Source: Candidatus Omnitrophota bacterium (lineage in GTDB: Bacteria > Omnitrophota > Omnitrophia > Omnitrophales > JACROU01). Taken from it: 64,000 nt of DNA. The notes under the pieces were generated by a model that was given only the letters and a program-made list of their open reading frames with translations, searched no databases and was not told where the DNA came from. Made by a program: the position numbers and the translations under genes. The stretch spans positions 258,926 through 322,925 of the forward strand of contig JAJDCD010000025.1 in NCBI GenBank assembly GCA_029261035.1, in the 5' to 3' direction. Below are positions 26,877 to 58,048 of this stretch, one piece after another (position 1 is the stretch's first letter; each line of letters starts with the position of its first letter).

Positions 26877-27710
26877 TTACGCAGCCTGCTTGATTTGCTG
26901 TGTCGCCTTAAATTCCTCTAGCAAACTATCCAGAACAGCAAACACACCTTCCCCAACAAGCCAAAAACCGTCTTTAGACTCTAACCCAACTTCAGTAAAG
27001 AGACGTTCTTGAGCCACAGGGTCGGCACTTACAGAAGCCAAAGCACGCAACAATGAAAATAAAATTTGAGGATGAATCTGATGCTCAGACAATCTCTCTT
27101 TATCCAATTTAAATCGAAGTAAGTTCTTAGCTTTATCCGGCATAGACACCGTATCTTCCAAAGCTTCTAAAGAAAATCTCTGTCCAAACCCACGAAACAT
27201 CAAATTAAGTTCACTGGCATAAGGCGTGTTTGTTCTTAAACTTTTCACATGAATATTCTTTCCACTAGCAACTTCTCTTATCTCAGGAATCGCGTCATAC
27301 TCCGTACCCACATCATCAATCGCAACAATACGATCCTGAGGTCGCAAACTTTCAACCAAAGCTTGAATACCGTTTACAATCATAGATTCTGTAACAACAA
27401 CCACAACTGGAGATTCGGTTAACTGCGAATCAAGAATTCTTTTAAGTACAAATTGATTAAAGCCGCCTTGAGTTACTCCCAAGTCAACAAGAGGCCGCGT
27501 AGAACTTTGAGCATAAAGAGGTTTGATTCCCAAAACAACATTTAAAAGGTCTCCCATCAATACTCCATCATCAGGAGCAAATACACGATCCGTAACATCC
27601 GTACCTACAGATAAAATGCTTAATACATTCCTATACCCCTGTCCATTACGAACTAAACCATTCTGAAATTGAATCAAAACTGAATAATCGATACCACGGG
27701 TAAGCTCTCC
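26877..27710 (-). other. Giant ORF block 22: C-terminal block
   Basis: About 277 residues. It holds a hydrophobic stretch ending LYAQSS (a signal-peptidase-like site preceding TRPLVDLGVT), then a Rossmann-like alpha/beta core (SPVVVVVTESMIVNGIQALVESL, DRIVAIDDVGTEYDAIPEI), and ends with a helical domain (LFSLLRALASVSADPVAQERLF). No family is recognised. Confidence 0.55.
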
Positions 27711-30700
27711 ACCCAAACTACTTGCTTCAGAACGTTTTTGGTTCATAGCTTCCAAAGCCTCTTGCATGCGACGCTCTCTTCTAAAACGCTTTACTCTATC
27801 TTTCATTTTTCTGATTCGAGCAGAAATATTAGGCTGGGACACTCCAAGTTCTTGAGCAATATCACCAACCCTATTTCCTTCTATAATCATCTCCGCAACT
27901 TGACGGTGACTTGAGGCGAATCGCTCAAACCAACCTTCCTTCTTAACTTCCTTGAAATAACGAATTTCTTTCTTTCGTTTCAGCTCTTTCCTTCCTGATA
28001 TATCCTCGCCCTTCCTCAAACGTTGGATTTTTTCTTCTGCTCTGCTTAATGATTGAGATATGCTCTGTATATTTGCATTAAATTGACGCGCTATTTCTGG
28101 AACCTTTTTACCCGACATAAATAACTGAACCACTTCTTTTTCTCTTATGCTAAGTTGTTTAAACAACCCTTCTCTTTTAGCTTTTCTAAAAATTTTCATT
28201 CTTGTCTTGTCTTGTAAAGCTTTGGTTTCAGCTTTTATTCTTGCTTGCTCCTCTTTACTTGTCCATTTGCCCTCTCTCATTAAAGATATATTTGACTTAG
28301 CACGATCTAACCTTCTCAGAACAGTAGTTGGAGTTACATTCGTTTCAATAGCAATAATAGCCACTCTGTATCCTAGCAAAATCCTCCAAGCAACTTCCTT
28401 TTCTTCTTTCGGCAACTTTTCATACAAACCTTCCTCTTGAGCTTTCCTCAAAAACTCTCGGTCCACTTCATAATCTCTCACCCCCCCCAAACTGCTGGCT
28501 TTTATCTGTGAACCTGTATTATTTGAGTCTGGAAACGGAATAATGATCCCTTCTTTTTCTTTTGCTGCTTGTCTCTGTTGTCCAATCTTTTCTCTAGCCT
28601 TTTTTCTGTGCAAATAAATGGCTGCTTGCGTCACCTCAAGCCATTCCGCTATCTCAACATATTTTTTCCCGGACAAAATACCTTCTATGACTCTCTTCTC
28701 TTGAAATGACAAGACTTCTAACAACCCCTCTTCCTTTGCTTTGCTAAAAAATTGGATCTCCTCTTTATAGTTCGCTTTTTTTCTTTTTCTAATTTCATTG
28801 CCACTATCAGGATGATTTGCCTTTTTATTAGCAGTTCTAAATGCAAGGTATACGGTCGATTCATTGAGTGAAGTTTCTTTGATTACTTCTGGAATCGTGT
28901 TACCTAAAAGGACTCCTTCAATAACCCGCTTTTCTGTCTCAGAAAGCCTGTCCCAATAAACTCCTTTCGCAGCCTGCCATAACACTCTATATGCTTCATA
29001 GTCTATTTCCCACCGAGAAGAAACTTCTTTTCCTGCTATTAAATCATCTATTTTCTGCTTGGTTCTTTTTATGGTGTCACGAACAGTAGCAGAATCCACT
29101 TTAAGCTGTTTGGCAATGGCGCTCGGCTGTCTTCCAGTTAAAAATAATTTCAAAATCTGCTTCTCTCGTTTTGTCAGTTTATCGAGAAACCCTTGCTCTT
29201 TTACCTCCAGAAAAAAGCTTTTAAGTTTTTGATAATCCACATATTCCACATTATTAACAGGTAAACCTTGTTTAAGCTTGTTCAACTTTTTCTTAGCTTT
29301 ATCGAGGTTGTTGGAAACAGCACCTACAGAAATTCCTACCTCAACAGCAATTTCTTCCTTTCGTTTACCGGAAACAAGCAAATGAATCACTTTCTGCTCT
29401 CGAGTTGAGAGTTGTTCCAGGTAACCTGATTTTTTCTCTTTTTCCCAATACTCCTTTTCTTTATCGTAGTCAAAATACGTTATTGTTCGTACAGTATTAC
29501 CGCTTCTCATTTTTTTAAACTTTGCTTTAGCTCGACTCATTGCAACAGAAACATCCGAAGGAGTAATATCCATTTCTTCAGCTATTTGTTTATTTCGTTT
29601 TCCTGAAAGAATCAACGCAATGACCTGCTTTTGTTGTTGTGACAGTGCATCAAACAATCCTTCCTCTTGAGCTAACGAAAAATACTCTCTCAGCTTTTTA
29701 TATTTTGTTTCTATAACAGTTGTTGGTTTAGCCGAATCACTATTCTTATTAATTTCTTGTTCGTGTTTTATTGCATCATCCGATTGCTCGTTACCCAAAC
29801 TTTTACCCTCAATGTCTTCACTAGAAACTTTCTTAGGCTTGTAAGTATAGCCACCCGAAGATTTGTTGCCTTTTCTCTCATCTTCCAAAAGCCCCGCAAT
29901 TATCCGAGCTGCATCCAGATCTTTCATTTCAAGCTGAAATCTCAATCTTTGATCTATCTTATCTAATAAATAACTAACTTGGAGCACGCTTTGTACCGTT
30001 TCTCCTTTTCCTATACGACTCATTATGTCAGTAAGCCTATAAAAGCAAGATGATTGTTGTTCTTTTTCCACATCCCTATCCGGCAATTCATCTCCAAGCT
30101 CAACCTTCTTCTTTCTATTCTCCGGATTAATCATTCCAGTCCCTGTGGCATAGCTCATCAGTTCATCAAAAGCATCATCAGAAGCGCCGGACTTTTTTCT
30201 TTTTTGAATTTCTTCCCAGATTCTTTGAGAGTCCATTCTATACTTATTAACAACATTATCAATTTGATTCATAAAACTTAGCGTTGTTTTTCCATCAAAA
30301 AGATCTTCCGCTAAAATTAAGGACTCATCCATTGCCGCAACTAAACGGACTGCATCCTCAAAATTTAGACTTTTCATAATTAGAATATACATTTTGGGAA
30401 TAACTGCATTACGCACCTCTGTTAATAAAATTTCAGCAAGAAAATACCAGCCTCTTTCTTTAACCAGTTGGCTCACATACTCCATAAGAGTCTCATGAGA
30501 ATTAGAAGCAAGAGAACCGAAATAATTAATATGCGCCATTAAAAACTTCTCATTAATTGCTTTATTTACCCCTTTATAAGCGTTTAAAAAATCACGCTCA
30601 CTATAATTTGCTAAATACTCTGACTTTAATTCTGGATTTAAATGAAAGAAAGCATAGATCACTTCTTTTTGAAATGGTTCAGAATGCATAGAAAAACGTC

Positions 30701-33700
30701 CAAAAGAACTAACGAGATTCTTCATCATCCGAAAAGACGCTTCAGCCCAAACATGACTTAATATATCGTAAACTTTATCGATGGACTCTTCAGAAACACT
30801 GCTAATTTCGTGAATAATGTGAATAAAGCTCCATAAGCGCAACCACATTCTATCTGGATAATTATCGAGCATATGGAAAGTTAGAATTTCTTTACTAGCT
30901 AGATAAGCAACCGTTGGATTAGCAACTAAATCAATACGCAGTTTTATTATCTTCTTTCCGTCTTCTAAAACCAGAGCAACAGGAGCTGTCTGATTGGAAA
31001 CAATTTGCCAAACCACTTCTCCAAAAACAAGATTCTTCGATTTATCCCTACCCCCACTAATAACCGAAATAACGTCCTTTACAAGCACCTCTAAACTCCC
31101 ACTAAATTCATCAAATTCAAAAACCCCGTTGGATTCCAAATATTTTTCAAGCCCATTTTGATTTATCTGAAAAGCATCTTCTTCCACAGGCAGTTCAGCT
31201 ACAATATTAACTGGATCTTCCTCAACGATATCTACAACAGGAAAGCTAGATTGAAAAGTCAGTCTACTTACTCGAATCACTTCGATAAAGTTAATCAATT
31301 GATTAATATCTTCACTCGAATTAAGAATATTTATTTTCTTTAATTCCTTTCTCGGAGCCGTAATTACAATATGACCTCCCTCTAAAACCAGAGGTCTTTT
31401 TTTGCCTACTTTAATGTCAACAGTAATAGGGTTTGAAAGAGAAACCCCTTTTTTAGATAGAATTTCTCTAATTTTATGTTTAATATTTTCTCGCACTTCT
31501 GTTGCTTTTAACTTTGAAGAATTGAGCAGTGCTATATTTAATAAATCATTCCCAACATCATCATCGCTAAGGTCCAGCTCCTCTATTAATGTCTCAGACT
31601 CTGCATTTCTTGAAACCGCTTTAAATACAGGCTCTTTTCCGCGTTTTAACAAATCTTGGTGAACACCAAAATATTCTGCCACCACACTTATTTCTTTGTC
31701 AGACAACTTTTCTTTTCCTTGCTCAATTTTCTTAACTGATTTTTTAACGAATAAAGTATTTGTTTTTAAAAGATCTGCTCGATTCATTCCCTTCGACAAT
31801 CTCAACAGCCAAATCCTGTTCCCAATTGATTTTTTACCTTCACCACCATCAAGCAAAGCTTCCTCTAATGCTTTCCCTACAATAACTTCAGTGACTGTCA
31901 CTCCCAAATACTCAGCGATAGCTTGAACTAAACTGACCGGCACGCTCTGAGGGTCACTATTCATCTTTTCTAACTTACTTGCAGTTACAATTTTTATATC
32001 CGAAACAAGATCTTCTAACGTTTTACCCTTTTTTAATAATACTTTAGCCAGAGGAAAAGAAGTTTTTCCTATCTTTGCTACTCTACTACTAGTTGAAGCA
32101 CTCTTTACATCTAGATTTTCATTTTTCACCTTTTCTAATAGTGTGATGTCCCCTTTATTATCAAACTGAGCTTTCCATTGTCTTTGAGCCCATTCAGGCA
32201 ATTCCTTATAGCCTATGCCATCAAAGCTCAATTCGAAACCATCTTTTTTAGACTCTAAAACTCCATGTCGAGCTAATAGCAAGAGTAAGGTGAAAACATC
32301 TTTACTCTTAATCCCTCCAAATTGGTTTCTTAAATGATTAATAATAAATGAGACTCCTTTTGAGCGTAAAACAGAACCCCATCTTAAAAATAAGCTTTTA
32401 CGACTAGAAAGATTATAAATCACTTGGTAACGACCCAATAAATTAGCTTTATCTGCCCCTATTCTTTCTCCAAAAATATATGTATGAACCTCATCTCCGA
32501 CAATTGGAAAGCTTGTAACGAGCCTGCCTTCATCTTCTGCTGTTGGTTCTATAATACTTCTGAGAATAGAAACGCCTTTATTATCAGAAGAAGGTTCCAA
32601 GAAATGCAGATACCAGTTAAGCTCCCAGCTAGGAAGAATCTTTTTATAATTAACTCCTCTTTGAATGCCTTCAAGAACTATTTCTCTAACTTGGATCTGA
32701 TCTAATTCTCTTGGAAAAAAAGAAGTCATTGCTCCATCCAAATTAGATTCTGGACTTAACATATGGCGATCAAAAACATGGGCTAATCCTGACTCGTAAA
32801 AAACATCCAGACTACTATCATAATTAACAATAGAAGCTGCCCCCGAACTCAAAGAACCTCTGCCTTTTACCTTTTCCTCAGAATCTAAATTAAAAACACG
32901 TATTGAAATATCATATTGGTGAATTAATTCTTTGGCATGGTCAAGCATCTGTTTAGCCTTAGCCAAATCCCCTTTTTGAACTTCAACGCGAGCAGCAACG
33001 CCCAAAGATCGTATTTGATACCAACGGAGCGTTCTGCTATTTTTATGTTTTTTTAGATGCAATTTTGCTTTCTTATACGCTTCTTGATATTTTCCTAAAG
33101 ATAACAAAAATTCAAGCTCATAAACTCTAACCCAAGAATCATCCGGATACATTTCCTTTAACATCTCTGCCTTACTTAATCCTAGTTCATATTTACCTAA
33201 GGCAACAAGAACTCGTAACTCTAACATTAAAGTCCAATAATTCCGCCGATCAACAGACAAAGCTTTTTCCACAACTTCCAACGCTCTATTTGCATCCCCC
33301 TGATTTAAATAAGCTTTTGCCAGCATATTATGAGCAAAGCTATTGGAAGGATTCATCCTCACCGAATGTTCGGAAATTTGAATAGCACGATCATTCATTC
33401 CTAGCTGTATGAGTAGCTTTGCCGCAGAGTTTCGAGCAAAAATATCGTGTTTTCCTACATCTAAGATTTCTTCCACAACTCTCAACGCCTCTATCTTTAA
33501 CTCCAACTTAATTAAAATATTTGCCTTTAAAATCATTTTTCTAAAGTCATCAGGCTTAATACGATAAGCTTTCTCTACTATATACAACGCTTCTTGAAGC
33601 CTATCTTTATCACCCGTTCGTGCAGATCTGAAAATGGCCCGCGCCAATATTTCCAAAGCAAAATGGTAATCTGGACTACTATACAAAAGATTTCTTAAAT

Positions 33701-45700: not shown

Positions 45701-48700
45701 GGGGCTTCGTGGAAAATCTAATGTGCAAAACAGGATTTTCATCTATATGCTTTGGCTCTAATTTTATGCTAAAAGTAGCTTTAGTAGTTCTAGGCATAAG
45801 CTCAGCAGGTAACTCTAAAAAAGCTGAAAAACTATTGGTCGAAAAATACATATGAGGAAAGACTGCATACTCCTGTTCTTTTCCTCTCTCATCCTTTCCT
45901 AAACTTGCAGCTTGGATATTTGTATTATCTGGTAAAAACTTAGACGGAGCATTGAGTGAAATTAAGTCAGGAAGTGTTTTTGGATCTAGGATTCTTCTTT
46001 CCAGCAATGCATCCATTTGTGTTCTAGTTTCTTGTTCTGTGGGACGCAAAATAGTGGATGGATTAAAAATTTCTCTCAATGTCTCTTGATGTCGGTTAAA
46101 ACCTGCACGATCAACACCGGGGAGAATATTAGCAGAACGAACACTTGCTTTAACGGCAGCTTCAAGATTTCTTCTAAATACAGATAAAATATGTCGGCGA
46201 ACATAGTTTCTGACATCTTCAGAAGACGGGGTTGCTCCTTCAGCTTGGAGTTTTTCTATAATTGTAGCTTCTCCTAGCCTAGAGACCAGTCGTGTTGTTA
46301 ATGTATCCAGTTCTGTAGCAAAAGCACCTTCTGTCGTATTTACCGAATTCATTAATCGAACAATCATCTCCGACTCAGCTGGATTCCATTGTAAGGATAA
46401 AACTATTCTGTAATAAAGAAGAGCTTGTCTAACCCACTCTTTGGGTTCTTCAGATGAAACAATTGCAAGGTACAAGCCATAGGCTGCTAAAAGACGATCA
46501 GAGTAAGTGGTAATAAAACTATCATGATCCATATTCGGAATAATGCTTGTCTTAAGCTGCTCCCATGTAACATCATCCGCTTCTATTCCGCGACGCTCTA
46601 AATAACCATTCAAAGTATATTTAAAACCTGTTAAAGGAGTCCTATTTGGATCTCCATTAAATCGTAAAAGCCAAACTAATGGAAAAATGAGAGGTCGTTG
46701 TGCATGAGTCATCATGTTTGGAATCTTACGTTCATCTATGTTTGCATTCTGCCTAAGAAGTCTCTCCAACTCTGGCATCTGGACCTCATCAGCCATTCGA
46801 GTAAGGTCAGCCATAGACAAATCAGGGTTCTGTTGCAACGCTTTCTTCCACCGCAATAAATGCCCATCATAATCTGAGTCAGTATAAGCACTCAGATAGA
46901 TCGTAGACAACCAGCTTTGAAATACTGCCGCCCTCATATCTATCAGTTGTAATTCTAAACGTTCTCTTTGGGTCAATCCACGGTTAAAAGAAGACTCATC
47001 ATTTCTAATAATCCAATGCGTTCCTTCGTGAAAAACTGCCGGTAATCCAAGTACAAACAAATGTGAATCTTCCGTAAAGGTCTTCTCCTCACTCATCACA
47101 ATCGTCCATGTCGAGCCCCCGTTCTCAGTTCTCGTCTGGCCATTAACTCCCTCAGGAAGTCCGGTCACAAACGTCGTCACAGAAAGAAGCCTTTGAACTA
47201 ATCTGTCTTTGGCCGCTGCACCAATTCCCGGTCTAGCGATATCTACCGCCATTCGATATCCATACTCCAAAGCCTCTCTTCTAAAAGCAGATTTGCCTTT
47301 AGGCGACAGCCTAAGCTGATCTCTATCAGCAGATCCCATCAGCCGTACTAATTCACGCACCGAAGAAGTAATGTTAGGGCTAAACAAATGGTTCTCCAAC
47401 TTTACTCTTCTTAACTCGACAACAATAGGATACCAAGCACCAAAATCTCTTCTCTCAATTTGCTCAACAGTTAAAGGAACTGGAACTTCAGGTGTTATCT
47501 CCTCATCTGAAGTTAATGTTGGAACACTTTCATTTTCAGTTTTTAAAAAGATCATTTTCCAGCCAAACATCGCGATCAACAATAACGATGTAGCAACGCC
47601 ACCAAACAAGAGGAATTTCCTGCTCTTAGCTCTTTTTTGCTTTATCTGTTCTATCTTCTGCAATGACTGCTGGTCCATTTGTTCTTTGATGGGTAACAAT
47701 AGCTGATCAACAATCTCCTCTTGAGCATCTTTAAACGCAGAAACATCAACGGAATCTAATGTAAAAATAGATTTTTTGTCATAAATAATTTTTATTTCCA
47801 AACCATGTGGATGAAGATGGGTCGCGATGATAGGGCCTTGAACCTCTCTATAAATTTCAGAGTCTCGAAAATGATTTAATAGCTTCTGAGCAATTGTTTT
47901 TGAAACAGGTCCAACAGTTGATATTTCAAGAGCCTTTCTTTCTCCCAAACTAGCTCCAACAGATTCTTCCCCTAGGTCTACTTCTTGCTTTAAAATAGCT
48001 AACTCCAAGGTTTTAATAATTTCCTTATCCGTTTCGGATATAACTTGGATGGGATACAGCGACTGATCTTTTCCAGGAAAAAATGTATCTAATAGGCGTT
48101 TGGATCTTTTTATAAAACTGTCAGGAACTATCAAAAAAAGCTTTCCCTTATTATCAAGGCCAATATTTACAATTGATTTTAAATAAGTTACGACAGAAAG
48201 TTTTGGAGGGTAACCTTCTCTTTCAATAAAAGATTTTGCTTTTTTAGTTGCAACAGCAAATGCAAATTCCCACTGCCTCACTCTAAACTCTTTTGAAGAA
48301 CCTCGCACAAAAACGCTGCCCGTATTTCTATTCAAATGTATTGAGTGAGGGCCATACAAAACCTGGACAGAGCCATCTTCTAGCCTTTTAACATCAACAG
48401 CAATTTGCCTCTCTAAAAATAGTTCTATCAGATCTTCCGTTAAAGCAGACACCTTATTCCAATTTTCTTGTTTAGACTTAGATCTCTTCCCATTACCTTT
48501 CTCGTCCTCAAAAATTATCGTATCAATTGTGTCAATTGCATCGTGTGCGATTTCAAGAACCTCCTCTTCAGAAATTTCTGCTTGTAGCTCGTCTCTAAAG
48601 TATGCAGTAATTTGAGAAACACTTAAACCTTTCAGAATTTTTTCTACAACCGTTTTAGAATCAGAGTCTAGAATTGAAAGAAGATAATGCTTCTCTCTAC

Positions 48701-51074
48701 CTAATACTTTGAAGAGCATATTAATCTTACGAATAGCTCTATCTTCGAAGGGGTATATTGCAGCAAATTCTAAGACCTCTTGCAAACGATCTAAGTCATT
48801 AAACTCAATACTAAAACCTTTGTAACCTAAAAAGCCAACCTCAATCTTAATTTCTTCTTTTTGAGCAACCTTACCCACAGTCATATTAGAGGTTATAAAC
48901 GATTTCATATCCTTTAACTGAGTAATGAGTCTCCTCATATTGCTAGCTAAAACAGACTTCCCTCTTACCACAATTCGGATTTTTTCGTCTTCACGCTCCA
49001 CCCTAACTCTATCTAGAGAGTCAAAGTCTTCAGATTTTTCTGAAACAATTGCTTTTAATAAAAGTTCTAAATTCTTGTAGTCCTGATTCCCCACGCGATA
49101 ATCAATTTTTTCTCCTACTCTCATAACAGTCAATTCTAAACCACCAATTTGAGACAGCATTTTTGCTTGAATAATTTTATCTACAAACAAAGGAATCTTC
49201 TTCAAAGACAAAGCAAGTTCTCGATTCCCTTCTGATTCGTACGTTTCTCCGTCAACAGAAATAATATATTTTAAACCATCCCTAACAACGCTAATTTCAT
49301 GCCCTACACTTCCTAAACTAGCACCAGAAACTTTCTTATTCTTCTTATCTTTAAATCCACCAGGAAGTTTAGTAGGCAATTTTGATTTTTTAACTGCAGG
49401 AGGAAGTTTAGATTTTGGTCTTTCAAAAGGTTTCTTTCCTAAACTATTAGCAACCGAAGCTACTAATTGTTCTCTTTGAGAAGCTGACACCCCTAATTGA
49501 ATAGGGTTAACAACTGACAAATGCTGCTTCATCACATTGGATACGTCAACCGAACCCAACATAGACTCAACATAAGTCCTGTGAGAATCATTTTCAAGAT
49601 AAGGTGCAATCGTAGAATAGCTCCACTGATGCTGTTTATAAAAATCCGTCAAAGCTCCAGCATGAAAACCCCCTGTAATCACGAGCGCTTTTGATTTTTT
49701 CTTTTCTTTAAGAGTTTTCTGAATTGTTTGGGTAAAAGCGCCTTCTCGAGCTTCTGCTATTTGATAAAATTGGAGAGCATTTTGAAATACATCATTTATC
49801 TGAGATTCTTCGTTGTTCTTTTCCTCTTCACCCAGAATGACAGTGGTAGGAGAGTTCTTCACTTCTGCCCAGTCTGTTCGAGTGAGTTGGAGTAAGAGTA
49901 GTTTCCTTAATAGTTTAAATGCTCCGACATTTCGAATCGCTTCTTTAGCACTTTCTGTTACTGCTAATTTGTTAGAGATGAGCTCAATCCATTGCGCGAG
50001 TTCTGCGAACAGCTCTTTGCTTTGGAGTTCATATTGGAAAATAATGTTTTTGGTATATTCTGAAAAGTGAGGATAATCTTTGAAATCAAAGCCTTTTGGT
50101 TCTAATTCTTGGTGGAGTTTTTCAAGTAAATGGCGTGGGTTGGTTTCGACATAATTTTCAAAGAAGATCTTTTGTATTAGATCCTTCGTTTCACTCAGAA
50201 TGACAAATTTGGATAGGATAAGCTCCCACCCTTGTTGAGCTTGTGCAATAGTATTTTTTTCTGACTCTGTTTTTAATTTGAGTAATCGAAGTAAGTTAGG
50301 AAATTGTCTTTGTTCTATTGGGTTTCTCAAATCTCTTTCAAGATGTCTTTGACTCATATGATCCAAATCTGAAAGAACCTTCATTAAAGAAAAGTTCTTC
50401 TCGCCCATATCCAAAGATATTCTTAACAAAGACAAAAGATCTCCTGTATCTGTACTCTTAGAAACAAGCAACGTTAATTCTTTATCTAAACTCTGTCTCT
50501 GTAACTCTAGCCACTCTTTAACTTCATCTTCATGTATTAATACTTGCTTCAGAGCTTCTACATTTTTTAGATAGAGTTCTGGATTTTCAATTCCTACAAA
50601 CTCCACCTTCTTATTTCCATGTTTGGATAAAAATAGGTCCGACTGGGTCGCTTCTCCCATCTGGGAAAGCTTATCTAATATTTTTTTATTTAATTCTGGA
50701 TTTTCCGTGAAATTAAGCAAATCAGCATCTAAACCTTGCTCCGTGGCCGCCTCAACAAAAATGAGATCGATGTCGTGCTGCTCGACAAGATATTCCATAA
50801 TAGAAGCTAAATTTTTCTGAGCTTCATAGTTCGCATGAGCATCTTGAAGATGAATGATTAAGGGATGTTCCTGAGTCGGTTTTGAAGAAAGAAAGTTTTT
50901 TTCTTGAACAGAACCTAATTCTGAAGGAATAGACAATTGTAAATCATAAAAAGGAAGACGGTCTACCTGCTTAGGTAGAGACGCTAAGGGAATTTGCCCA
51001 TAACTAAGAGTATTCCATGAAAAGAGTAAACAAGTAATTAAAGCTATAAATCTAAGATATTTTTTAAAATACAT
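26877..51074 (-). CDS. Giant 8,065-codon ORF: polyprotein-like chain of ~23 blocks separated by x-[AG]-x-SLG motifs
   Basis: One uninterrupted frame of 24.2 kb. The ATG at 51072-51074 is chosen: it starts a clear signal peptide (MYFKKYLRFIALITCLLFSWNTLSYGQ), an AGGGAGG lies at 51090-51096, and the alternative TTG at 51110 would lie upstream of the predicted transcription start. Blocks of 24-1,340 residues are separated by x-[AG]-x-S-L-G. They include a TraB/ChaN-like domain, an HEGTH block, membrane segments, four then eight HTH units, a complete calcineurin-type phosphatase, an ATPase-like block, a lipoprotein-like block, a kinase-like fold and TPRs. Secretory and DNA-binding-like modules in one chain do not suit a single folded protein. 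Giant genes are known in Omnitrophota, but I recognise no family covering this arrangement. Block details are in separate entries; function unknown. Confidence 0.93.
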   Translation of the reverse strand: MYFKKYLRFIALITCLLFSWNTLSYGQIPLASLPKQVDRLPFYDLQLSIPSELGSVQEKNFLSSKPTQEHPLIIHLQDAHANYEAQKNLASIMEYLVEQHDIDLIFVEAATEQGLDADLLNFTENPELNKKILDKLSQMGEATQSDLFLSKHGNKKVEFVGIENPELYLKNVEALKQVLIHEDEVKEWLELQRQSLDKELTLLVSKSTDTGDLLSLLRISLDMGEKNFSLMKVLSDLDHMSQRHLERDLRNPIEQRQFPNLLRLLKLKTESEKNTIAQAQQGWELILSKFVILSETKDLIQKIFFENYVETNPRHLLEKLHQELEPKGFDFKDYPHFSEYTKNIIFQYELQSKELFAELAQWIELISNKLAVTESAKEAIRNVGAFKLLRKLLLLQLTRTDWAEVKNSPTTVILGEEEKNNEESQINDVFQNALQFYQIAEAREGAFTQTIQKTLKEKKKSKALVITGGFHAGALTDFYKQHQWSYSTIAPYLENDSHRTYVESMLGSVDVSNVMKQHLSVVNPIQLGVSASQREQLVASVANSLGKKPFERPKSKLPPAVKKSKLPTKLPGGFKDKKNKKVSGASLGSVGHEISVVRDGLKYIISVDGETYESEGNRELALSLKKIPLFVDKIIQAKMLSQIGGLELTVMRVGEKIDYRVGNQDYKNLELLLKAIVSEKSEDFDSLDRVRVEREDEKIRIVVRGKSVLASNMRRLITQLKDMKSFITSNMTVGKVAQKEEIKIEVGFLGYKGFSIEFNDLDRLQEVLEFAAIYPFEDRAIRKINMLFKVLGREKHYLLSILDSDSKTVVEKILKGLSVSQITAYFRDELQAEISEEEVLEIAHDAIDTIDTIIFEDEKGNGKRSKSKQENWNKVSALTEDLIELFLERQIAVDVKRLEDGSVQVLYGPHSIHLNRNTGSVFVRGSSKEFRVRQWEFAFAVATKKAKSFIEREGYPPKLSVVTYLKSIVNIGLDNKGKLFLIVPDSFIKRSKRLLDTFFPGKDQSLYPIQVISETDKEIIKTLELAILKQEVDLGEESVGASLGERKALEISTVGPVSKTIAQKLLNHFRDSEIYREVQGPIIATHLHPHGLEIKIIYDKKSIFTLDSVDVSAFKDAQEEIVDQLLLPIKEQMDQQSLQKIEQIKQKRAKSRKFLLFGGVATSLLLIAMFGWKMIFLKTENESVPTLTSDEEITPEVPVPLTVEQIERRDFGAWYPIVVELRRVKLENHLFSPNITSSVRELVRLMGSADRDQLRLSPKGKSAFRREALEYGYRMAVDIARPGIGAAAKDRLVQRLLSVTTFVTGLPEGVNGQTRTENGGSTWTIVMSEEKTFTEDSHLFVLGLPAVFHEGTHWIIRNDESSFNRGLTQRERLELQLIDMRAAVFQSWLSTIYLSAYTDSDYDGHLLRWKKALQQNPDLSMADLTRMADEVQMPELERLLRQNANIDERKIPNMMTHAQRPLIFPLVWLLRFNGDPNRTPLTGFKYTLNGYLERRGIEADDVTWEQLKTSIIPNMDHDSFITTYSDRLLAAYGLYLAIVSSEEPKEWVRQALLYYRIVLSLQWNPAESEMIVRLMNSVNTTEGAFATELDTLTTRLVSRLGEATIIEKLQAEGATPSSEDVRNYVRRHILSVFRRNLEAAVKASVRSANILPGVDRAGFNRHQETLREIFNPSTILRPTEQETRTQMDALLERRILDPKTLPDLISLNAPSKFLPDNTNIQAASLGKDERGKEQEYAVFPHMYFSTNSFSAFLELPAELMPRTTKATFSIKLEPKHIDENPVLHIRFSTKPPTEKSVPANIVIQNEYGRELVGYAVPERENLYTPVEVSFPNTNGKTQVLELDLTPYIIPGTQDHAFNRDRLVHQISLFNHLGGVTTIHDIRVISKVTAAQKSPKARGASLGKKKGPEKWLDFKPSDTDDIYHSWGVIPELKGRSRLLMDYPFLMTDFDLWYKRPHYLYGTSVGILKAQVTLGRMGGYPAFSDDIVKADPDNPMVFSSKGRIFFMLQRTKDNLFQAYEMVIGYADRTAESGRAETAYEFYKQLWEKFQIKLPLPPLEDFKRRAVLRLPVEDVQPFLRPSFDPLTGQGERFSSKRGIPIKYLRNAEIILEEEIPVKQGVFKMRIGLNRQTSSFQEHGMMLHPSEITEADAKRYRALFRLADVAVYFKDKWKPFAEEVTFQPESFRLKAFVYLSSLISFVRTSVKLGAFLFAAQWVLFSHPYSLASFSIYYFSLATFLWLLPNLLYPIRRLLSPMSDPSVPYPDAEWKQFRQELDTMLAAEAARRNLKLEDMFPQLNKNGKGEQNEGQETDDSENTEASSLGESKELFTLGFAEVQTRLAQIDFLSGKGLPKHEKVQKKALRSKIAKKIISRRDNKTQSLITTQDIQTIILEMNDGSLSEEESQKLLQELKNLFRINQERKIKENVEKGSKERAPPFRLLIKPAIVLGVLALVFTTVLFLFPSSKPIKEKKSTASPARIRDDITFLGVESPLARKDLVKRNFQYRNFEPIEVPSDFPLTLIPVTHTGQDNARRLKDILEGIEGQLSRDPNNGVLPMVLWAEGDIDFDGLVEINGLEALRQMSKIQQKQASFNLLIEDIIKDSQTNQALNNALLAYRNQIRGRQYNFFNDQSPRAASVAQKVERLRSEFGDSSFSSHLMEWAIQNKAYLLPESRGFDSWVISWDVNKLTELAHWSLFNNDIEGAYFYSDLAFRYSVEMIYLRDRELWQQVIQMNERLWAQAVQAGYQSPNYRIVVPIGASHTSSFQLQSNQIIRPNPGRSEREITIQKELEGRLTETERKRYIEKSMLRYFIVTSVGNPDSYQAIKDIYQLFTQRMEETPMTYEQLLRLLGDRLSGEKKRNRGEITIRPILLDLLLEKELITAEEKRVLARSLGKQPFERPKSKVPPRVKKSKLPTKFPGGFEEKKKKKTSGASLGKGKFSKHVNAIRTIFERNSKNSFQLLESSDLSKNEKEVVEFALLDPSLKIRQIEEILGIAQPSVTIYRRRALKKLLEAEEILKQGGELKPDDSKQKLRALPQIEELFKRNPNSKERLLNVSGLSENEKKVVEFVLLYPSLKTKRIGEILGIAQPSVSIYRRRALEKLLKAEEILKQGGELKPDDSKQEKREKIRRSKKRRVLPQIEELFKRNPNSKEQLLNGSGLSENERRIVEFALSDPDLTIEKIANKIGVAYSSASIFRSRALEKLLEAEEILKQGGELKPDDSKQEKREKIRRSKKTRVVPQIEELFKRNPNSKEQLLNGSGLSENEKKVVKFVLLEPSLKIKRIGEILGIAQTSVSIYRRRALEKLLKAEEILVGSEVNESQLEQLEGIQLVSDESNEPKFEIDVTVSDFEEVNRDLLFDYMDSWHVIVLKKFLKGEAVVKIANDFGISPVLTLKLLKEAKEFVVKLSEGEVPPDEASAQASSLGDEKLSKDLTVKLAGSDRVDADSLGVEGESSEDEDESFVTELFNSVVPSPRLSDADIAQAKARIMAGVASNAGESNEASEAEQDAVLKSDDSDEVEASSLGKSPIRTLPVNKNFDLYFEPEDLVESLSYLDLRRLFRDAREAMLSYSRTARPWTRMDEAMPGLDFESQPGAIVHITDGENVLPIGDLQGHYYNLVEMLMHPRVLSGLKDGTLHLVFLGDLIHPSGNLMLKKNAQTQSLATLILFMQLKTAFPGNIHTILGNHELSHVEGSNFSARKKDPKGKEHYQNKEFENSLEARYGTKQKRQLAHHLDSLFRSLPLMIRIRVGKEYLMALHANPPVDVMFPKEAENPIKLAQILVSSEDLAQDELPLYDLVSLEELANVLYWGGYRVNENPYLHTLVNKREFDSEKQQQFLSTMGLAGILTGHTIPIPRYARDRGFKIFSSAGPTIQLMRMGYFENDLILDASSDLDQPEKHIATLLIGMNQELPRKSEDETIDWPKLLDSLESPAVQLINQDSVTRTMKLRNLAGKPLGKSKEGKIKSTNKLRELLILLRGGLSRRAIASHPAMSHSAFQIRRYESKAKFVPADYLRELRDVIGFGLEWNEDNKWALEPSSLVEGSSLGDRYARRHSNIEKSGLKRGDEIYYKELTYFSVPGKKEENALRDLVREMVRSIYQSVGKLHMSETELLRRLKVENEFLIGKINAVMFFSLENSWDAFVERKQKEPGFKDDLHIVYRAYVEDGNLIIELIDNGNGEVHFNKSDSKLKDDQFLGGMGMDEDVIQRIASDVSVRRRPAFIDLFNRLETKGAIRQIRIPLETVLSQSGKYSASSLGKDSLKEIESTQITDRELPLTLLGAVSLGFVLAVSGYLAYEAMRAPPYIPTPQGIPSTQGMSLGEDPLDKDLDDLTDEEFELEIIGTLGYWFGGKRNKEDGDGVEADSLGSQEIETSKWAAFFSFSVLALAFYGIVFSQVNVEVVHYVIGLISFIAFPVSVLGLIHSLGLPFLSQKIKLPPRSLRQSNPEIYKERVVDFFRYPMLNEIDYLKRVLKLIPEDGVFSEEQKASLLKHGFLEKVLHYYLMRVHSLNDEASRRVLKSAVKTSGQKNIKQILSSKRNEDLMYFIYSDGTIRSYSIAQYKFTPLNKPFKYSDYSIILEKEEGEGLVVVSSLSSMQYIESRYNFIIQTINLDPDVPEESRYKVYKAFRHSLFMGDSVTLVNFSILFSQKNDDRKDLGYIQIDSGIYSVDFDKKRTEEFAPQSVEAKSLGGAEEQLESIEAEVLLKRKQMATLDTFGLLLEIVSEQPKALVVIDVLSLIHLIFALNPEIATEENKELVARYIADYISRNYPSDIVFSEFIATKIEEIKSKGLFYFVADPILLFVSGVNLTLILNSSFSMETIPIFLISVLLPIMIVVGTLVKLKRLFNSITMNFSALGNLMKINAKSLEILSTEYSRDSGEGESVGEMLEGDSLGRRLGFRSGFLLLTLLAGPTALAGCNLIKTTQQTGIKSIEALKGMEVIEEVNGPKYTFKDNQLTLFPNEGYFMATPSQPIDLDQFRYLNLWIEAESEAWFWLGLLNREVKPLVRENKLGAITVEAEEGLQKITIDLHSKMKLWDRLFGTNIVKAIGFVNPISEKGPIVIKRMSFSRAESLGKPLLSSETKYKIKPYGPHQLTIPLDVLKDNDFIRETIQNLNLPVGLTPLKWIKFERVKTNLQKNIYKVQLVSEEDVESSFYIYETRGNKTDLNKYVNNYQRAADYMASTSGFDLFPRVGAVQEGKAGFLYQSVEYVEPVTHDPSNIKLIPHIIESYLRLLDHSWAIGDFRWDQFSVTRDQNGNRIAKMVDLDVLEYFPNNLKALEHHFFEFISYIMKRPNAEELFDQLISLMRNKGYLSRQVLDGVVRRFESGNFSRTYSSDPNLIKMLRSHLDGWLRDDQIKRSKELVQRIKELRIDPISFNQKTKSLPWSREHIQLLKLGVNPKVVLEGIRFEYGADRANMGRSSQQRHSWWQRNHNLTKNKSRKGLEIMVREGLAVMPYQYRSYFVGTGAGHSDNIWYIIHQSMHDVFWNTLTESQRNEFKAILIEMKKKYIEQFPYKVFDSDYDKVDLGLGNTIYEDDEHIIQNLENVSEAFARIVGAYLGDQLGQNNYYYNRDSPSFYNLKPFYEFLERELELVSSPEHLEQLLSAVDSSFKNETEGLSAQSLGEESSYLREKFGHLVTMELISLQDWILGGLTGELLKDPLKNSRLLQRLKQIAEKIFITGPVHNSDAEEDELVRDFRMIIDITSEFFEGQKPSVVDIMQIFIAQRSGVVFFAEDLGTPRPKEYVEGNSLGVEEDRRVGLTRGNVPVYELQQDFLRVRQAQYLIKERRFEEAEQNLRNLLYSSPDYHFALEILARAIFRSARTGDKDRLQEALYIVEKAYRIKPDDFRKMILKANILIKLELKIEALRVVEEILDVGKHDIFARNSAAKLLIQLGMNDRAIQISEHSVRMNPSNSFAHNMLAKAYLNQGDANRALEVVEKALSVDRRNYWTLMLELRVLVALGKYELGLSKAEMLKEMYPDDSWVRVYELEFLLSLGKYQEAYKKAKLHLKKHKNSRTLRWYQIRSLGVAARVEVQKGDLAKAKQMLDHAKELIHQYDISIRVFNLDSEEKVKGRGSLSSGAASIVNYDSSLDVFYESGLAHVFDRHMLSPESNLDGAMTSFFPRELDQIQVREIVLEGIQRGVNYKKILPSWELNWYLHFLEPSSDNKGVSILRSIIEPTAEDEGRLVTSFPIVGDEVHTYIFGERIGADKANLLGRYQVIYNLSSRKSLFLRWGSVLRSKGVSFIINHLRNQFGGIKSKDVFTLLLLLARHGVLESKKDGFELSFDGIGYKELPEWAQRQWKAQFDNKGDITLLEKVKNENLDVKSASTSSRVAKIGKTSFPLAKVLLKKGKTLEDLVSDIKIVTASKLEKMNSDPQSVPVSLVQAIAEYLGVTVTEVIVGKALEEALLDGGEGKKSIGNRIWLLRLSKGMNRADLLKTNTLFVKKSVKKIEQGKEKLSDKEISVVAEYFGVHQDLLKRGKEPVFKAVSRNAESETLIEELDLSDDDVGNDLLNIALLNSSKLKATEVRENIKHKIREILSKKGVSLSNPITVDIKVGKKRPLVLEGGHIVITAPRKELKKINILNSSEDINQLINFIEVIRVSRLTFQSSFPVVDIVEEDPVNIVAELPVEEDAFQINQNGLEKYLESNGVFEFDEFSGSLEVLVKDVISVISGGRDKSKNLVFGEVVWQIVSNQTAPVALVLEDGKKIIKLRIDLVANPTVAYLASKEILTFHMLDNYPDRMWLRLWSFIHIIHEISSVSEESIDKVYDILSHVWAEASFRMMKNLVSSFGRFSMHSEPFQKEVIYAFFHLNPELKSEYLANYSERDFLNAYKGVNKAINEKFLMAHINYFGSLASNSHETLMEYVSQLVKERGWYFLAEILLTEVRNAVIPKMYILIMKSLNFEDAVRLVAAMDESLILAEDLFDGKTTLSFMNQIDNVVNKYRMDSQRIWEEIQKRKKSGASDDAFDELMSYATGTGMINPENRKKKVELGDELPDRDVEKEQQSSCFYRLTDIMSRIGKGETVQSVLQVSYLLDKIDQRLRFQLEMKDLDAARIIAGLLEDERKGNKSSGGYTYKPKKVSSEDIEGKSLGNEQSDDAIKHEQEINKNSDSAKPTTVIETKYKKLREYFSLAQEEGLFDALSQQQKQVIALILSGKRNKQIAEEMDITPSDVSVAMSRAKAKFKKMRSGNTVRTITYFDYDKEKEYWEKEKKSGYLEQLSTREQKVIHLLVSGKRKEEIAVEVGISVGAVSNNLDKAKKKLNKLKQGLPVNNVEYVDYQKLKSFFLEVKEQGFLDKLTKREKQILKLFLTGRQPSAIAKQLKVDSATVRDTIKRTKQKIDDLIAGKEVSSRWEIDYEAYRVLWQAAKGVYWDRLSETEKRVIEGVLLGNTIPEVIKETSLNESTVYLAFRTANKKANHPDSGNEIRKRKKANYKEEIQFFSKAKEEGLLEVLSFQEKRVIEGILSGKKYVEIAEWLEVTQAAIYLHRKKAREKIGQQRQAAKEKEGIIIPFPDSNNTGSQIKASSLGGVRDYEVDREFLRKAQEEGLYEKLPKEEKEVAWRILLGYRVAIIAIETNVTPTTVLRRLDRAKSNISLMREGKWTSKEEQARIKAETKALQDKTRMKIFRKAKREGLFKQLSIREKEVVQLFMSGKKVPEIARQFNANIQSISQSLSRAEEKIQRLRKGEDISGRKELKRKKEIRYFKEVKKEGWFERFASSHRQVAEMIIEGNRVGDIAQELGVSQPNISARIRKMKDRVKRFRRERRMQEALEAMNQKRSEASSLGGELTRGIDYSVLIQFQNGLVRNGQGYRNVLSILSVGTDVTDRVFAPDDGVLMGDLLNVVLGIKPLYAQSSTRPLVDLGVTQGGFNQFVLKRILDSQLTESPVVVVVTESMIVNGIQALVESLRPQDRIVAIDDVGTEYDAIPEIREVASGKNIHVKSLRTNTPYASELNLMFRGFGQRFSLEALEDTVSMPDKAKNLLRFKLDKERLSEHQIHPQILFSLLRALASVSADPVAQERLFTEVGLESKDGFWLVGEGVFAVLDSLLEEFKATQQIKQAA
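27720..29792 (-). repeat. Giant ORF blocks 20-21: eight sigma region 4/LuxR-like HTH units
   Basis: Eight ~75-95-residue units on one plan: an aromatic helix (YFSLAQEEGLF, FFSKAKEEGLL...), then LSxxEKxVIxLxLxGK, then a HTH (EIAxxLxVSxxTVxxxxxRAxxKI), then a short basic linker. Five units precede the SLG at 28493 and three follow it. The units are diverged, unlike block 8. A single protein carrying so many unpaired HTHs is unusual. Confidence 0.85.
29802..33830 (-). other. Giant ORF block 19: TPR array, XRE-like HTHs and unassigned parts
   Basis: About 1,340 residues, the longest block. It begins with ~8 TPR units (32940-33770; e.g. RRFEEAEQNLRNLLYSSPDYHFALEILARAIF and GDANRALEVVEKALSVD). A middle part is unassigned (FYESGLAHVFDRH...). 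Two XRE/Cro-like HTHs follow (31640-32100; IGNRIWLLRLSKGMNRADLLKTN.. and VSLVQAIAEYLGVTV). A helical region without recognised family occupies 30000-31600. XRE and TPR together suggest a regulatory module. Confidence 0.65.
33840..34214 (-). other. Giant ORF block 18: short helical block
   Basis: About 125 residues, mostly helical (FGHLVTMELISLQDWILGGL, LQRLKQIAEKIF), ending in a proline-containing linker before EGNSLG. No family is recognised. Confidence 0.5.
34224..35861 (-). other. Giant ORF block 17: protein-kinase/APH-like fold plus helical part
   Basis: About 545 residues. IYKVQLVSEEDVESSFYIYETRG suggests an N-lobe; IIESYLRLLDHSWAIGDFRWDQFSV with AKMVDLDVLEYF gives D-x4-(N/Q) and D-x-D in the spacing of the catalytic and metal loops of APH/kinase folds. 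The second half is helical, with HSWWQRN and YYNRDSPSFYNL. Tentative; the catalytic Asn is replaced by Gln. Confidence 0.45.
35871..36401 (-). other. Giant ORF block 16: embedded lipoprotein-like block
   Basis: Directly after EGDSLG there is a complete lipoprotein signal: basic RRLGFR, a hydrophobic core, then LAGC with Cys4915 at 36330-36332, 24 residues after the SLG glycine. The remaining ~150 residues form a beta-rich domain (FRYLNLWIEAESEAWFWLGLL, LQKITIDLHSK) resembling a carbohydrate-binding jelly roll. Read alone, the block would be called a secreted lipoprotein. Confidence 0.7.
36411..38309 (-). other. Giant ORF blocks 13-15: membrane-rich blocks
   Basis: Three SLG-bounded blocks. 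Block 13 (37992-38309) has one TM (LLGAVSLGFVLAVSGYLAYEA), a proline-rich linker with the extra GMSLG, and an acidic tail. Block 14 (37026-37982) has two TMs (AFFSFSVLALAFYGIVF; YVIGLISFIAFPVSVLGLI) and a soluble alpha/beta part. Block 15 (36411-37016) has helical segments and two TMs (PILLFVSGVNLTLIL; IPIFLISVLLPIMIVVGTL). No family is recognised. Confidence 0.6.
38319..38939 (-). other. Giant ORF block 12: GHKL/HATPase-like domain
   Basis: About 207 residues. ALRDLVREMVRSIYQS... resembles an N-box helix. The central LIIELIDNGNGEVHF matches the G1 box (DNG.G) of histidine-kinase ATPases, and FLGGMGMDEDVIQRI the G2-type loop. It lacks a DHp/H-box in the same block. Tentative. Confidence 0.5.
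38949..40505 (-). other. Giant ORF block 11: calcineurin-like metallophosphoesterase plus XRE-like HTH
   Basis: All the phosphoesterase motifs are present in order: GDLQGHYYNL (G3607-H3612, 40239-40256), FLGDLIHPSGN, LGNHELSH (G3682-E3685), MALHANPP and TGHTIPIPR. This is the full metal-ligand set of calcineurin-like/bis(5'-nucleosyl)-tetraphosphatase-type enzymes. After ~100 residues comes a short helix-turn-helix (LSRRAIASHPAMSHSAFQIRRYE). Likely catalytically competent. Confidence 0.8.
40515..40805 (-). other. Giant ORF blocks 9-10: two short acidic blocks
   Basis: Two SLG-bounded pieces: 21 residues (40743-40805) and ~73 residues (40515-40733). The second is highly acidic (ESSEDEDESF, SNEASEAEQD). 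They look disordered. No fold is expected. Confidence 0.7.
41130..42275 (-). repeat. Giant ORF block 8: four tandem sigma-70 region 4-like HTH units
   Basis: Four ~80-100-residue units, each with IEELFKRNPNSKE..LL, then LSENEKKVVEF, then a HTH (IGEILGIAQPSVSIYRRRALEKL), then EEILKQGGELKPDDSKQ. The three central copies are nearly identical even at the DNA level (the phrase GAACAGTTCTTCAATTTGAG recurs near 41345, 41655 and 41960). This points to recent tandem duplication. Confidence 0.85.
42285..42401 (-). repeat. 39-residue Lys/Pro-rich linker, copy 2
   Basis: Same length as copy 1 (49320-49436), 31/39 identical, and again bounded on both sides by SLG motifs. The preceding SLG reads LARSLG. 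The two copies are about 7 kb apart, so a duplication of an SLG-linker-SLG unit is the simplest origin. Confidence 0.85.
42411..44114 (-). other. Giant ORF block 6: one TM helix plus possible second TraB/ChaN-like domain
   Basis: About 570 residues. The N-terminal helical stretch has MNDGSLSEEES, then one TM helix (LGVLALVFTTVLFLF) and a domain with TLIPVTHTGQDNARRLKDILEGIE at its start and IVVPIGASHTSSFQ at its end, echoing the paired His loops of block 0. The relationship is suggestive only. Confidence 0.4.
44124..45368 (-). other. Giant ORF block 5: unassigned domain with C-terminal membrane helices
   Basis: About 415 residues. A globular part with aromatic-rich phrases (YPFLMTDFDLWYKRPHYLYG) is followed by two or three hydrophobic helices (LGAFLFAAQWVLF, IYYFSLATFLWLLPNLLY), then a polar, acidic tail (EGQETDDSENTEAS) leading to SLG. 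No family is recognised. Confidence 0.55.
45378..45896 (-). other. Giant ORF block 4: beta-sandwich-like block
   Basis: About 170 residues, rich in predicted strands (TKATFSIKLEP, VLHIRFSTK, ANIVIQNEYG, VLELDLTPYI, GVTTIHDIRVISKV). The layout resembles a carbohydrate-binding or galactose-binding-like jelly roll. Assignment by pattern only. Confidence 0.45.
45906..47942 (-). other. Giant ORF block 3: TM anchor plus HEGTH zinc-metallopeptidase-like domain
   Basis: Residues 1045-1723. A coiled, basic stretch leads into one TM helix (FLLFGGVATSLLLIAMFGW). The following domain has LPAVFHEGTHWII with H1349-E-G-T-H1353, the zinc-binding HExxH core, at 47016-47030. The third ligand is not certain; ELQLIDMRAAVF 25-30 residues later could supply a Glu or Asp. 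If active, this is the obvious candidate protease inside the chain. Confidence 0.6.
47952..49310 (-). other. Giant ORF block 2: unassigned alpha/beta block
   Basis: About 450 residues (589-1041). Short beta-strand phrases recur around 'G-x-x-Y/I-x-V-x-G' patterns: DGLKYIISVDGETY, VGEKIDYRVGNQDY, EEIKIEVGFLGYKGFSIEF, and later GSVQVLYGPHSIHLNRNTGSVFV. This suggests repeated small alpha/beta units. A basic stretch (GNGKRSKSKQ) sits in the middle. No family is recognised. Confidence 0.6.
49320..49436 (-). repeat. 39-residue Lys/Pro-rich linker, copy 1
   Basis: This block lies exactly between two SLG motifs and contains PFERPKSK, VKKSKLPTK and PGGF. It matches copy 2 (42285-42401) at 31 of 39 residues with no gap. 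Its high Lys/Pro content suggests an unstructured, basic segment. Confidence 0.85.
49446..51074 (-). other. Giant ORF block 0: signal peptide + TraB/ChaN/TIKI-like domain
   Basis: Residues 1-543. After the signal peptide come LIIHLQDAHANYEAQ (~75), DLIFVEAA (~110) and, near the end, ALVITGGFHAGALTDFY. This is the order of a His-containing loop, a 'VEaa' strand and a C-terminal GxxH seen in the TraB/TIKI/ChaN-like fold. Two intergenic-repeat remnants are read through in frame (49803-49843 and 50178-50207). The domain assignment is tentative. Confidence 0.5.
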
Positions 51075-51112
51075 ATAGTTAAAACCAGACCTCCCTAAAG
51101 AATTGAACAAAA

Positions 51113-52606: not shown

Positions 52607-52622
52607 ACTTTATTAAATAAAA

Positions 52623-52736
52623 CCGGCAATTACCTACTCTCCCAATCCCGTTAGAGATAAGTACCATCGGCGGAGGAGGGCTTAACTGCCGTATTCGAAA
52701 TGGGAACGGGTGTTTCCCCTCTCCTATGATCACCGG
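52623..52736 (-). rRNA. rrf: 5S ribosomal RNA
   Basis: About 114 nt with the closing stem CCGGTGA / TTGCCGG. Conserved pieces include GAAACACCCGTTCCCATT and CCGAACACGG-type GAATACGGCAGTTAAGCC. It lies between 23S and the terminator. Ends are approximate by 1-3 nt. Confidence 0.92.
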
Positions 52737-52832
52737 AAACTGTTATAGTATTTTCGTTTCACGATTTAAAAAATCTGACAATTGAAATCAATATCAAGAG
52801 CTTGGATAATAGTCAAGTAGCTGAAATTATAT

Positions 52833-55834
<3,002 letters not shown>

Positions 55835-56029
55835 ATAAAAACCACTCGAACTACTCGATGTATTACCCTTACTCTAGAAATTGATTTACAATTGTCAAAG
55901 AACGATTGATAGCCAAAAGCTATCAAAATACTAAAAAATTAAAATCATAATTAAGAACTAAAATAATTTAATTCTGAATTATGATTTATTTTAAAAACTC
56001 TAAATTGTGTGTGCTTTCCAAACAAAGTT

Positions 56030-56105
<76 letters not shown>

Positions 56106-56151
56106 ATGCTGAGAATTACTAACTCGTGATTTGAGCTTAGTTCTGTACTGA

Positions 56152-56228
56152 TGGTGGGCCCGAGTGGATTCGAACCACTGACCTCTGCGTTATCAGCACA
56201 GCGCTCTAACCAACTGAGCTACGGGCCC
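56152..56228 (-). tRNA. tRNA-Ile (GAT)
   Basis: 77 nt including an encoded CCA. The acceptor stem is GGGCCCG / CGGGCCC, the T arm has GGTTCGAATCC, and the anticodon loop is CTGATAA with anticodon GAT. It is upstream of tRNA-Ala in the rRNA spacer, the common bacterial order. Confidence 0.95.
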
Positions 56229-56501
56229 AAATAATATATAGCTTTATCACTGATTTGTTAGCCAAAAAAAGCTATCAAAACAAAACAAAGCTAAGGCGCC
56301 TCGCATTCAGAGAACAATCAGTAAAACAAAATCTGTTGTGCTGACTGCGCCCAAATAAAAAAATCTGGAGTGCAAAAGAATTAGGGTCAAAAGACCGAGT
56401 AAATTACTACACCGAATTTTCAATACTTAACTCACATCCAGTAAACCGGTGAGGTTACTATGATGCTTAAGAATTAAGTAAGGCCTAGTTTTACTCCTTA
56501 G

Positions 56502-58048
<1,547 letters not shown>

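Follow-up and report, generated by a model that had tools for sequence, protein, structure and literature searches.

Polyproteins are regarded as a viral, and rarely a eukaryotic, strategy. A virus-coded protease acts there on many sites sharing one short extended motif, and protease and sites are able to co-evolve. To our knowledge, no cellular prokaryote runs dozens of genes as polyproteins. The plastid polyproteins of Euglena (RBCS, LHCP) contain a conserved linker decapeptide that is excised after import (PMC4938576). The MARTX toxins of Vibrio are exported giant chains whose modular cargo is freed by proteolysis (PMC6315884). In the phylum Omnitrophota, giant ORFs of more than 20 kb with few annotated domains have been described, which are poorly conserved in the Velamenicoccia; the passages on giant ORFs in that paper mention neither polyproteins nor processing (Seymour et al. 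2023, PMC10066038).

From their sequences, an uncultured member of the Omnitrophota and related bacteria are predicted here to form dozens of giant exported proteins that join whole enzymes via a family-specific motif. The window (the whole stretch of DNA analysed, 64,000 nucleotides) carries one of the genes on its minus strand, to which all feature coordinates below refer. The frame covers 26877..51074 from an ATG (8,065 aa) or 26877..51110 from a TTG (8,077 aa), and the ATG at 51074 coincides with the start of the signal peptide. Immediately upstream lies a complete rRNA operon (52621-58047, minus strand) comprising 16S, two tRNAs, 23S and 5S.

By far the most over-represented tripeptide in the giant ORF is SLG, with 28 copies, 24 of them with Ala or Gly at position -2. 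In 2,000 local shuffles SLG occurred 4.1 times on average (maximum 13) and [AG]xSLG 0.43 times (maximum 4). The 27 other ORFs of the window together contain ten SLG, in none of which position -2 is A or G. The 8,065-residue open frame with a repeated SLG motif, noted in an earlier sequence-only reading of this DNA, is thereby borne out. That reading also proposed that Ala/Gly at -2 separates SLG at boundaries from SLG in helices. This holds for 23 copies and fails at aa 4293 (GAVSLG within LLGAVSLG, 38226..38240), which lies in a predicted membrane helix, so that 23 of the 24 copies are boundary-like and this one is probably a chance match. Its six-residue motif had the right core, [AG]xSLG, and was too short: the consensus of this genome and two related genera is [VSAT]-x-[AG]-[ASQ]-S-L-G, and beyond these roughly seven positions little is conserved.

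The protein starts with a Sec-type signal peptide (MYFKKYLRFIALITCLLFSWNTLSYG, 51000..51074), similar to those ahead of the same domain in the paralogues read, followed by the N-terminal domain (N-domain, 49476..50999). Motif 1 (VANSLG, aa 556, 49437..49451) and motif 2 (SGASLG, aa 598, 49311..49325) enclose the 42-aa spacer block B02 (49320..49445). Its near-copy B08 (42285..42410) lies between motif 7 (LARSLG, aa 2901, 42402..42416) and motif 8 (SGASLG, aa 2943, 42276..42290), i.e. the spacer is duplicated from motif to motif. Motif 3 (VGASLG, aa 1054, 47943..47957) precedes block B04 (45906..47951), which contains one membrane helix and an HEGTH-bearing domain and has no Pfam match above cut-off; it ends at motif 4 (QAASLG, aa 1736, 45897..45911), followed by motif 5 (RGASLG, aa 1912, 45369..45383) and motif 6 (EASSLG, aa 2330, 44115..44129). 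Block B09 (40815..42284), an HTH array of the LuxR/sigma-region-4 type (GerE, 1.7e-16), extends from motif 8 to motif 9 (QASSLG, aa 3433, 40806..40820), with motif 10 (DADSLG, aa 3457, 40734..40748) and motif 11 (EASSLG, aa 3533, 40506..40520) close by. A calcineurin-like phosphoesterase forms block B12 (38949..40514) up to motif 12 (EGSSLG, aa 4055, 38940..38954), and a relative lies 9 aa past a motif within L030, a giant from a sister genus. Block B13 (38319..38948) reads by eye as a GHKL/histidine-kinase-like ATPase; the window copy has no Pfam match, while HATPase_c is detected in L030.

In the second half of the protein, motifs 13 (SASSLG, aa 4265, 38310..38324), 14 (QGMSLG, aa 4328, 38121..38135), 15 (EADSLG, aa 4374, 37983..37997), 16 (EAKSLG, aa 4696, 37017..37031) and 17 (EGDSLG, aa 4901, 36402..36416) lead to block B19 (35871..36410), at whose start stands a lipoprotein-type signal (SLGRRLGFRSGFLLLTLLAGPTALAGC). 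After motifs 18 (RAESLG, aa 5081, 35862..35876), 19 (SAQSLG, aa 5630, 34215..34229) and 20 (EGNSLG, aa 5758, 33831..33845) follows block B22 (29802..33839), a TPR array and then an uncharacterised region. Two further HTH arrays, B23 (28494..29801; GerE, 1.1e-31) and B24 (27720..28493), are delimited by motifs 21 (EGKSLG, aa 7104, 29793..29807), 22 (KASSLG, aa 7540, 28485..28499) and 23 (EASSLG, aa 7798, 27711..27725). A conserved alpha/beta, possibly Rossmann-like C-terminal domain (26880..27608) ends in IKQAA and the stop codon.

The giant is a member of a large family. Homologues of its N-domain (the first ~540 aa) occur in 39/39 genomes searched (its own and same-order relatives), with about 1-32 matches each, and the domain stands at the head of numerous giant ORFs, the longest among the matches listed having 11,659 aa. 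The best 80 relatives from the genome collection all belong to Candidatus Omnitrophota, Omnitrophus fodinae among them. In a phylum sample the domain is present in 142/285 genomes; the largest ORFs with it met there measure 13,402 aa (G003:C55) and 13,298 aa (G085:C59). Own-genome paralogues were taken as the stretches around matches, and the window motif is common to the paralogous giants (15/15 read) and to related genera. The O. fodinae giant appears split by a frame change, which may be an assembly error; the next frame contains SLG and an LQQAA end.

The AlphaFold model of the N-domain is confident (pLDDT 85.7). Its top Foldseek matches are EreC, the EreC relative BcR135 and ChaN, all of one superfamily; for EreC the probability is 1.0 but E only 2e-3 and TM-scores are low. 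His, Glu, Arg and a GG.H motif are invariant in 134/134 N-domains, which suggests an enzyme, presumably hydrolase-like. The domain resembles the EreA/ChaN superfamily (relatives of TIKI/TraB) in its probable fold and its His/Glu/Arg/His constellation, but differs from it in a ChaN match below the Pfam cut-off, a long extra helical region and the fusion to cargo. What can be seen of TIKI/TraB-type features is limited to the motif GGFH (GX2H) and one conserved Glu. In several genomes of the families with the RSE motif introduced below, an N-domain protein of ~715-790 aa is encoded on the giant's locus (L085, L100, L105, L119, L124, L125), often with TLSELRN past the domain. These proteins are candidates for a partner or processing enzyme.

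At the other end, complete ORFs terminate in Ala, mostly as AA or SA, in 23/26 cases in the window's family and in 18/22 in the RSE families, compared with about 14% of control ORFs. The conserved C-terminal domain is present in about a dozen complete giants, and a fold search with it returned just weak Rossmann-like matches. The family extends beyond what had been read from the window: it is phylum-wide, its motif is lineage-specific, its exported, enzyme-like N-domain is constant, and it has a C-terminal [AS]A end.

The motifs are placed between domains. In every SLG-group ORF tested, the first motif follows 21-177 aa past the N-domain. Twelve ORFs contain 109 motifs, and not one of these falls within a Pfam domain, compared with 16.4 expected under uniform placement (P=1.2e-8), a null on the generous side, as residues of this kind are favoured in polar linkers; for RSExR, the motif of most sister families, the values are 0/40 and 3.8. 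This agrees with the earlier proposal that the motif stands between domain types. Motif flanks are more polar than average (p=6e-11). The distance from domain edge to motif is no shorter than random (median 186 vs 225, P=0.19). Motifs avoid domains, yet blocks often exceed what Pfam recognises. One copy of [AG]xSLG, at aa 305 of giant L025, lies within the N-domain and is not a boundary.

Several blocks behave as units. A 352-aa block common to giants L022 and L023 has motifs exactly at either end, and repeats within L022 (217-15531 of that locus, 5,105 aa, with a match to a WD40-type beta-propeller) often start or stop at motifs. A CMP kinase (1139-1389) fills the space between motifs at 1109 and 1400, and a UDP-glucose dehydrogenase block begins 9 aa past an RSExR. 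The PEPCK block of paralogue L024 (aa 2182-2862) aligns end to end with the separate 596-aa PEPCK of the same genome and is therefore a diverged second copy. In the P-loop of this block Ser takes the place of Cys (ACGKT to ASGKT), with other motifs retained. Together with the CMP kinase and the motif-to-motif duplications, the PEPCK alignment strongly supports the view that blocks resemble self-standing proteins; as a full match to a single gene it concerns a paralogue's block and not one of the window. The shortest inter-motif blocks comprise 24-46 aa.

Further cargo matches include a macro domain, histidine phosphatase, PPDK, ARMT1, methyltransferases, NUDIX, isocitrate lyase, malate synthase, glutamate dehydrogenase, amino-acid kinase, glucosamine isomerase, GAPDH, phosphofructokinase, phosphoglucomutase and transaldolase. 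A search for cargo conserved in both SLG and RSE families, intended for a comparison of homologous boundaries, found little in common beyond the N-domain. The window giant is almost free of cysteine: past residue 60 Cys makes up 0.02% of residues, compared with 0.78% in neighbouring ORFs, and one of the two Cys concerned is that of the B19 lipobox. Giants are nearly Cys-free in most same-order families; the giant of family f6 and those of other classes are not Cys-poor. Sulphur saving is not a favoured explanation, since Met stands at 1.8%. Apart from the window lipobox, several of the few residual Cys of the giants lie in ICL KKCGH, GAPDH SCTTN, PPDK CGYCG and UGDH GGSCFPKD, which we take to be catalytic Cys motifs. 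That nearly Cys-free enzymes preserve a catalytic Cys hints at a central metabolism located outside the reducing cytoplasm.

The motif itself changes between families. In the SLG group, A or G occupies position -2 in 189/225 SLG, and in the pooled own-genome paralogues A.SLG occurs 70 times compared with 1.4 expected. Enrichment of the SLG motif extends to O. fodinae and to family f6, one ORF of which carries 21 copies. In most sister families R-S-E-[VLMA]-R replaces it within the same architecture. In family f2 AGFG is found 8 times (0.36 expected) and is probably, though tentatively, a third lineage motif. A search for short motifs in family f4 and in other classes gave none that was evident. 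Both SLG and RSExR are distributed over the various giants of a genome.

A tree of 134 N-domains requires 11 changes of the motif label, at least 6 of them forced by supported branches, and a model-based tree of 45 rows forces at least 4. Holding the SLG rows of the latter as one clade is rejected (AU p=9e-88), and so, on these trees, is the idea that the motif was simply passed down inside a single gene clade. Old paralogue clades span families, the motif tracking the genome and not the gene clade; this points to a trans-acting, genome-encoded reader. On the simplest reading, a factor encoded in the genome recognises the motif throughout these proteins; it is most likely a protease. The sequences show this family-wise change across unrelated clades, as they do the architecture, the motif placement and the motif-to-motif duplication of some blocks.

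Cleavage is favoured by the position of internal signals. In 442,322 aa of giants there is one internal lipobox-type signal, at aa 4927 of the window giant, 28 aa past a motif. Two internal Tat-type signals were found; the sole one in the order lies at aa 1675 of L030, 12 aa past a motif, the other in another class without the motif. Lipoprotein and Tat-type signals usually act at a free N-terminus, and the two in the order start just past motifs, where cutting would free one. We consider it probable that the giants are proteolytically processed polyproteins, as the earlier reading inferred. The exported precursor would carry at its front a Sec signal peptide and the constant, hydrolase-like domain of EreA/ChaN fold, and would continue with exchangeable cargo blocks, of which many are entire enzymes or regulators, up to the C-terminal [AS]A of most complete members. 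The reader, encoded in the genome and acting in trans, is most likely an endoprotease, which would recognise the linker motif and free the blocks. In the SLG family, a cut just past the A/G of [VSAT]-x-[AG]-x-S-L-G would fit small-x-small, a pattern upstream of SLG that seems to resemble a protease site; in most sister families the reader would recognise RSE[VLMA]R instead. The protease identity of the reader, the position of the cut and the site of action of the products are what we infer.

The evidence on the compartment conflicts. The Sec signal and the loss of Cys speak for an oxidising compartment, with export preceding use. Internal Tat and lipoprotein signals, HTH arrays and enzymes that use nucleotides favour the cytoplasm as the place of processing. 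A charge test of membrane topology gave a suggestive bias. Two candidates are disfavoured as general processor: an S41 C-terminal processing protease, an idea derived from the C-terminal AA, was found in just 13/38 genomes, and clostripain (C11), considered as cutter of the Arg motif, was found in 0/38. More tentatively, a bacterial order might make a large set of exported enzymes, among them diverged, nearly Cys-free copies of central-metabolism enzymes, as giant polyproteins that are cut by one genome-encoded protease, perhaps the N-domain itself, the motif being replaced concertedly at more than 100 sites per lineage; we put this forward as a possibility.

The motif could instead be a docking site on an uncut giant scaffold, read by an adaptor, a chaperone, a secretion factor or a cross-linking enzyme. 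Any trans-acting reader fits the concerted motif switch, and adaptor binding to an uncut chain would explain it too, which counts against cleavage; published work otherwise takes giant ORFs for surface or adhesion proteins (PMC10066038). We nevertheless regard an uncut scaffold as unlikely, since DNA-binding arrays, lipoprotein-type and Tat-type signals and soluble enzymes are hard to reconcile with it unless they are released, the signals lie directly past motifs and the inter-motif blocks can be very short. A sub-case of proteolytic processing, whose probability overlaps with it, is a multi-effector weapon exported and cut inside another cell in the manner of MARTX. Omnitrophota are suspected predators or parasites, and peptides of one giant ORF were up three-fold in attached Velamenicoccus cells (PMC10066038); constant ends around variable cargo, and Cys purged with catalytic Cys retained, would suit this as well. 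No translocation domain or MARTX-type part was recognised, though, many of the cargo domains belong to ordinary enzymes of metabolism or regulation, and the internal Tat and lipoprotein signals suggest use inside the producing cell, so that we hold a weapon to be quite improbable.

Codon usage bears on two further explanations. At the motifs of the window's genome 87% of Ser codons are AGY, and the window's own sites show a skew to AGY and, for Leu, to TTR. This could betray a relic, i.e. a fusion scar or helix-capping linker spread by duplication and now free of recognition, and the 87% AGY is indeed a sign of shared descent, as are some motif-to-motif block duplications of such spreading. 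A relic is very unlikely all the same, because the motif tracks the genome, about seven residues were retained while the flanks diverged, and the same peptide is encoded in f6 mainly with TCN Ser codons. The skew could also reflect a recombination site, a translation restart or a frameshift signal in DNA or RNA that incidentally encodes the peptide. Here most of the Leu skew is the usual level for LG, the third bases of Gly are free, and TCN prevails in f6 and in the own-genome paralogue L017; synonymous variation in f6 and other paralogues largely refutes an element at the DNA level, which is scarcely credible. The skew at the window's motifs is best read as shared descent, given that other Ser codons predominate for this peptide in f6.

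If the giants are processed polyproteins, they resemble the Euglena plastid precursors in being signal-led, with a conserved short linker between protein units; unlike here, those are eukaryotic, their units are repeats of one protein, and their ten-residue linker has no sequence relation to the present motif. As in MARTX, a single exported giant chain bears modular cargo, whose release by proteolysis is a proposal in our case. MARTX is self-cut by an embedded cysteine protease domain, whereas the Omnitrophota motif would be read in trans in the products of dozens of genes; no Pfam family for a MARTX-type cysteine protease domain or RTX repeats appeared in any scanned block. With viral polyproteins the giants share one short motif at many sites, but they are products of cellular genes with dozens of paralogues, exported and variable in cargo. 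The giant ORFs of Seymour et al. are from the same phylum. A full-text literature search for Omnitrophota with polyprotein, with preprints and most subscription papers outside its coverage, returned no paper. No known bacterial system compared fits processing of this kind; even if nothing is cleaved, the motif-switching giant family would remain undescribed.

Some of the giant ORFs of the Omnitrophota could be explained in this way. Processing at the motif predicts exact N-termini, testable by proteomics, and the switch of motif from family to family would represent a natural experiment in the co-evolution of a protease with its substrates.
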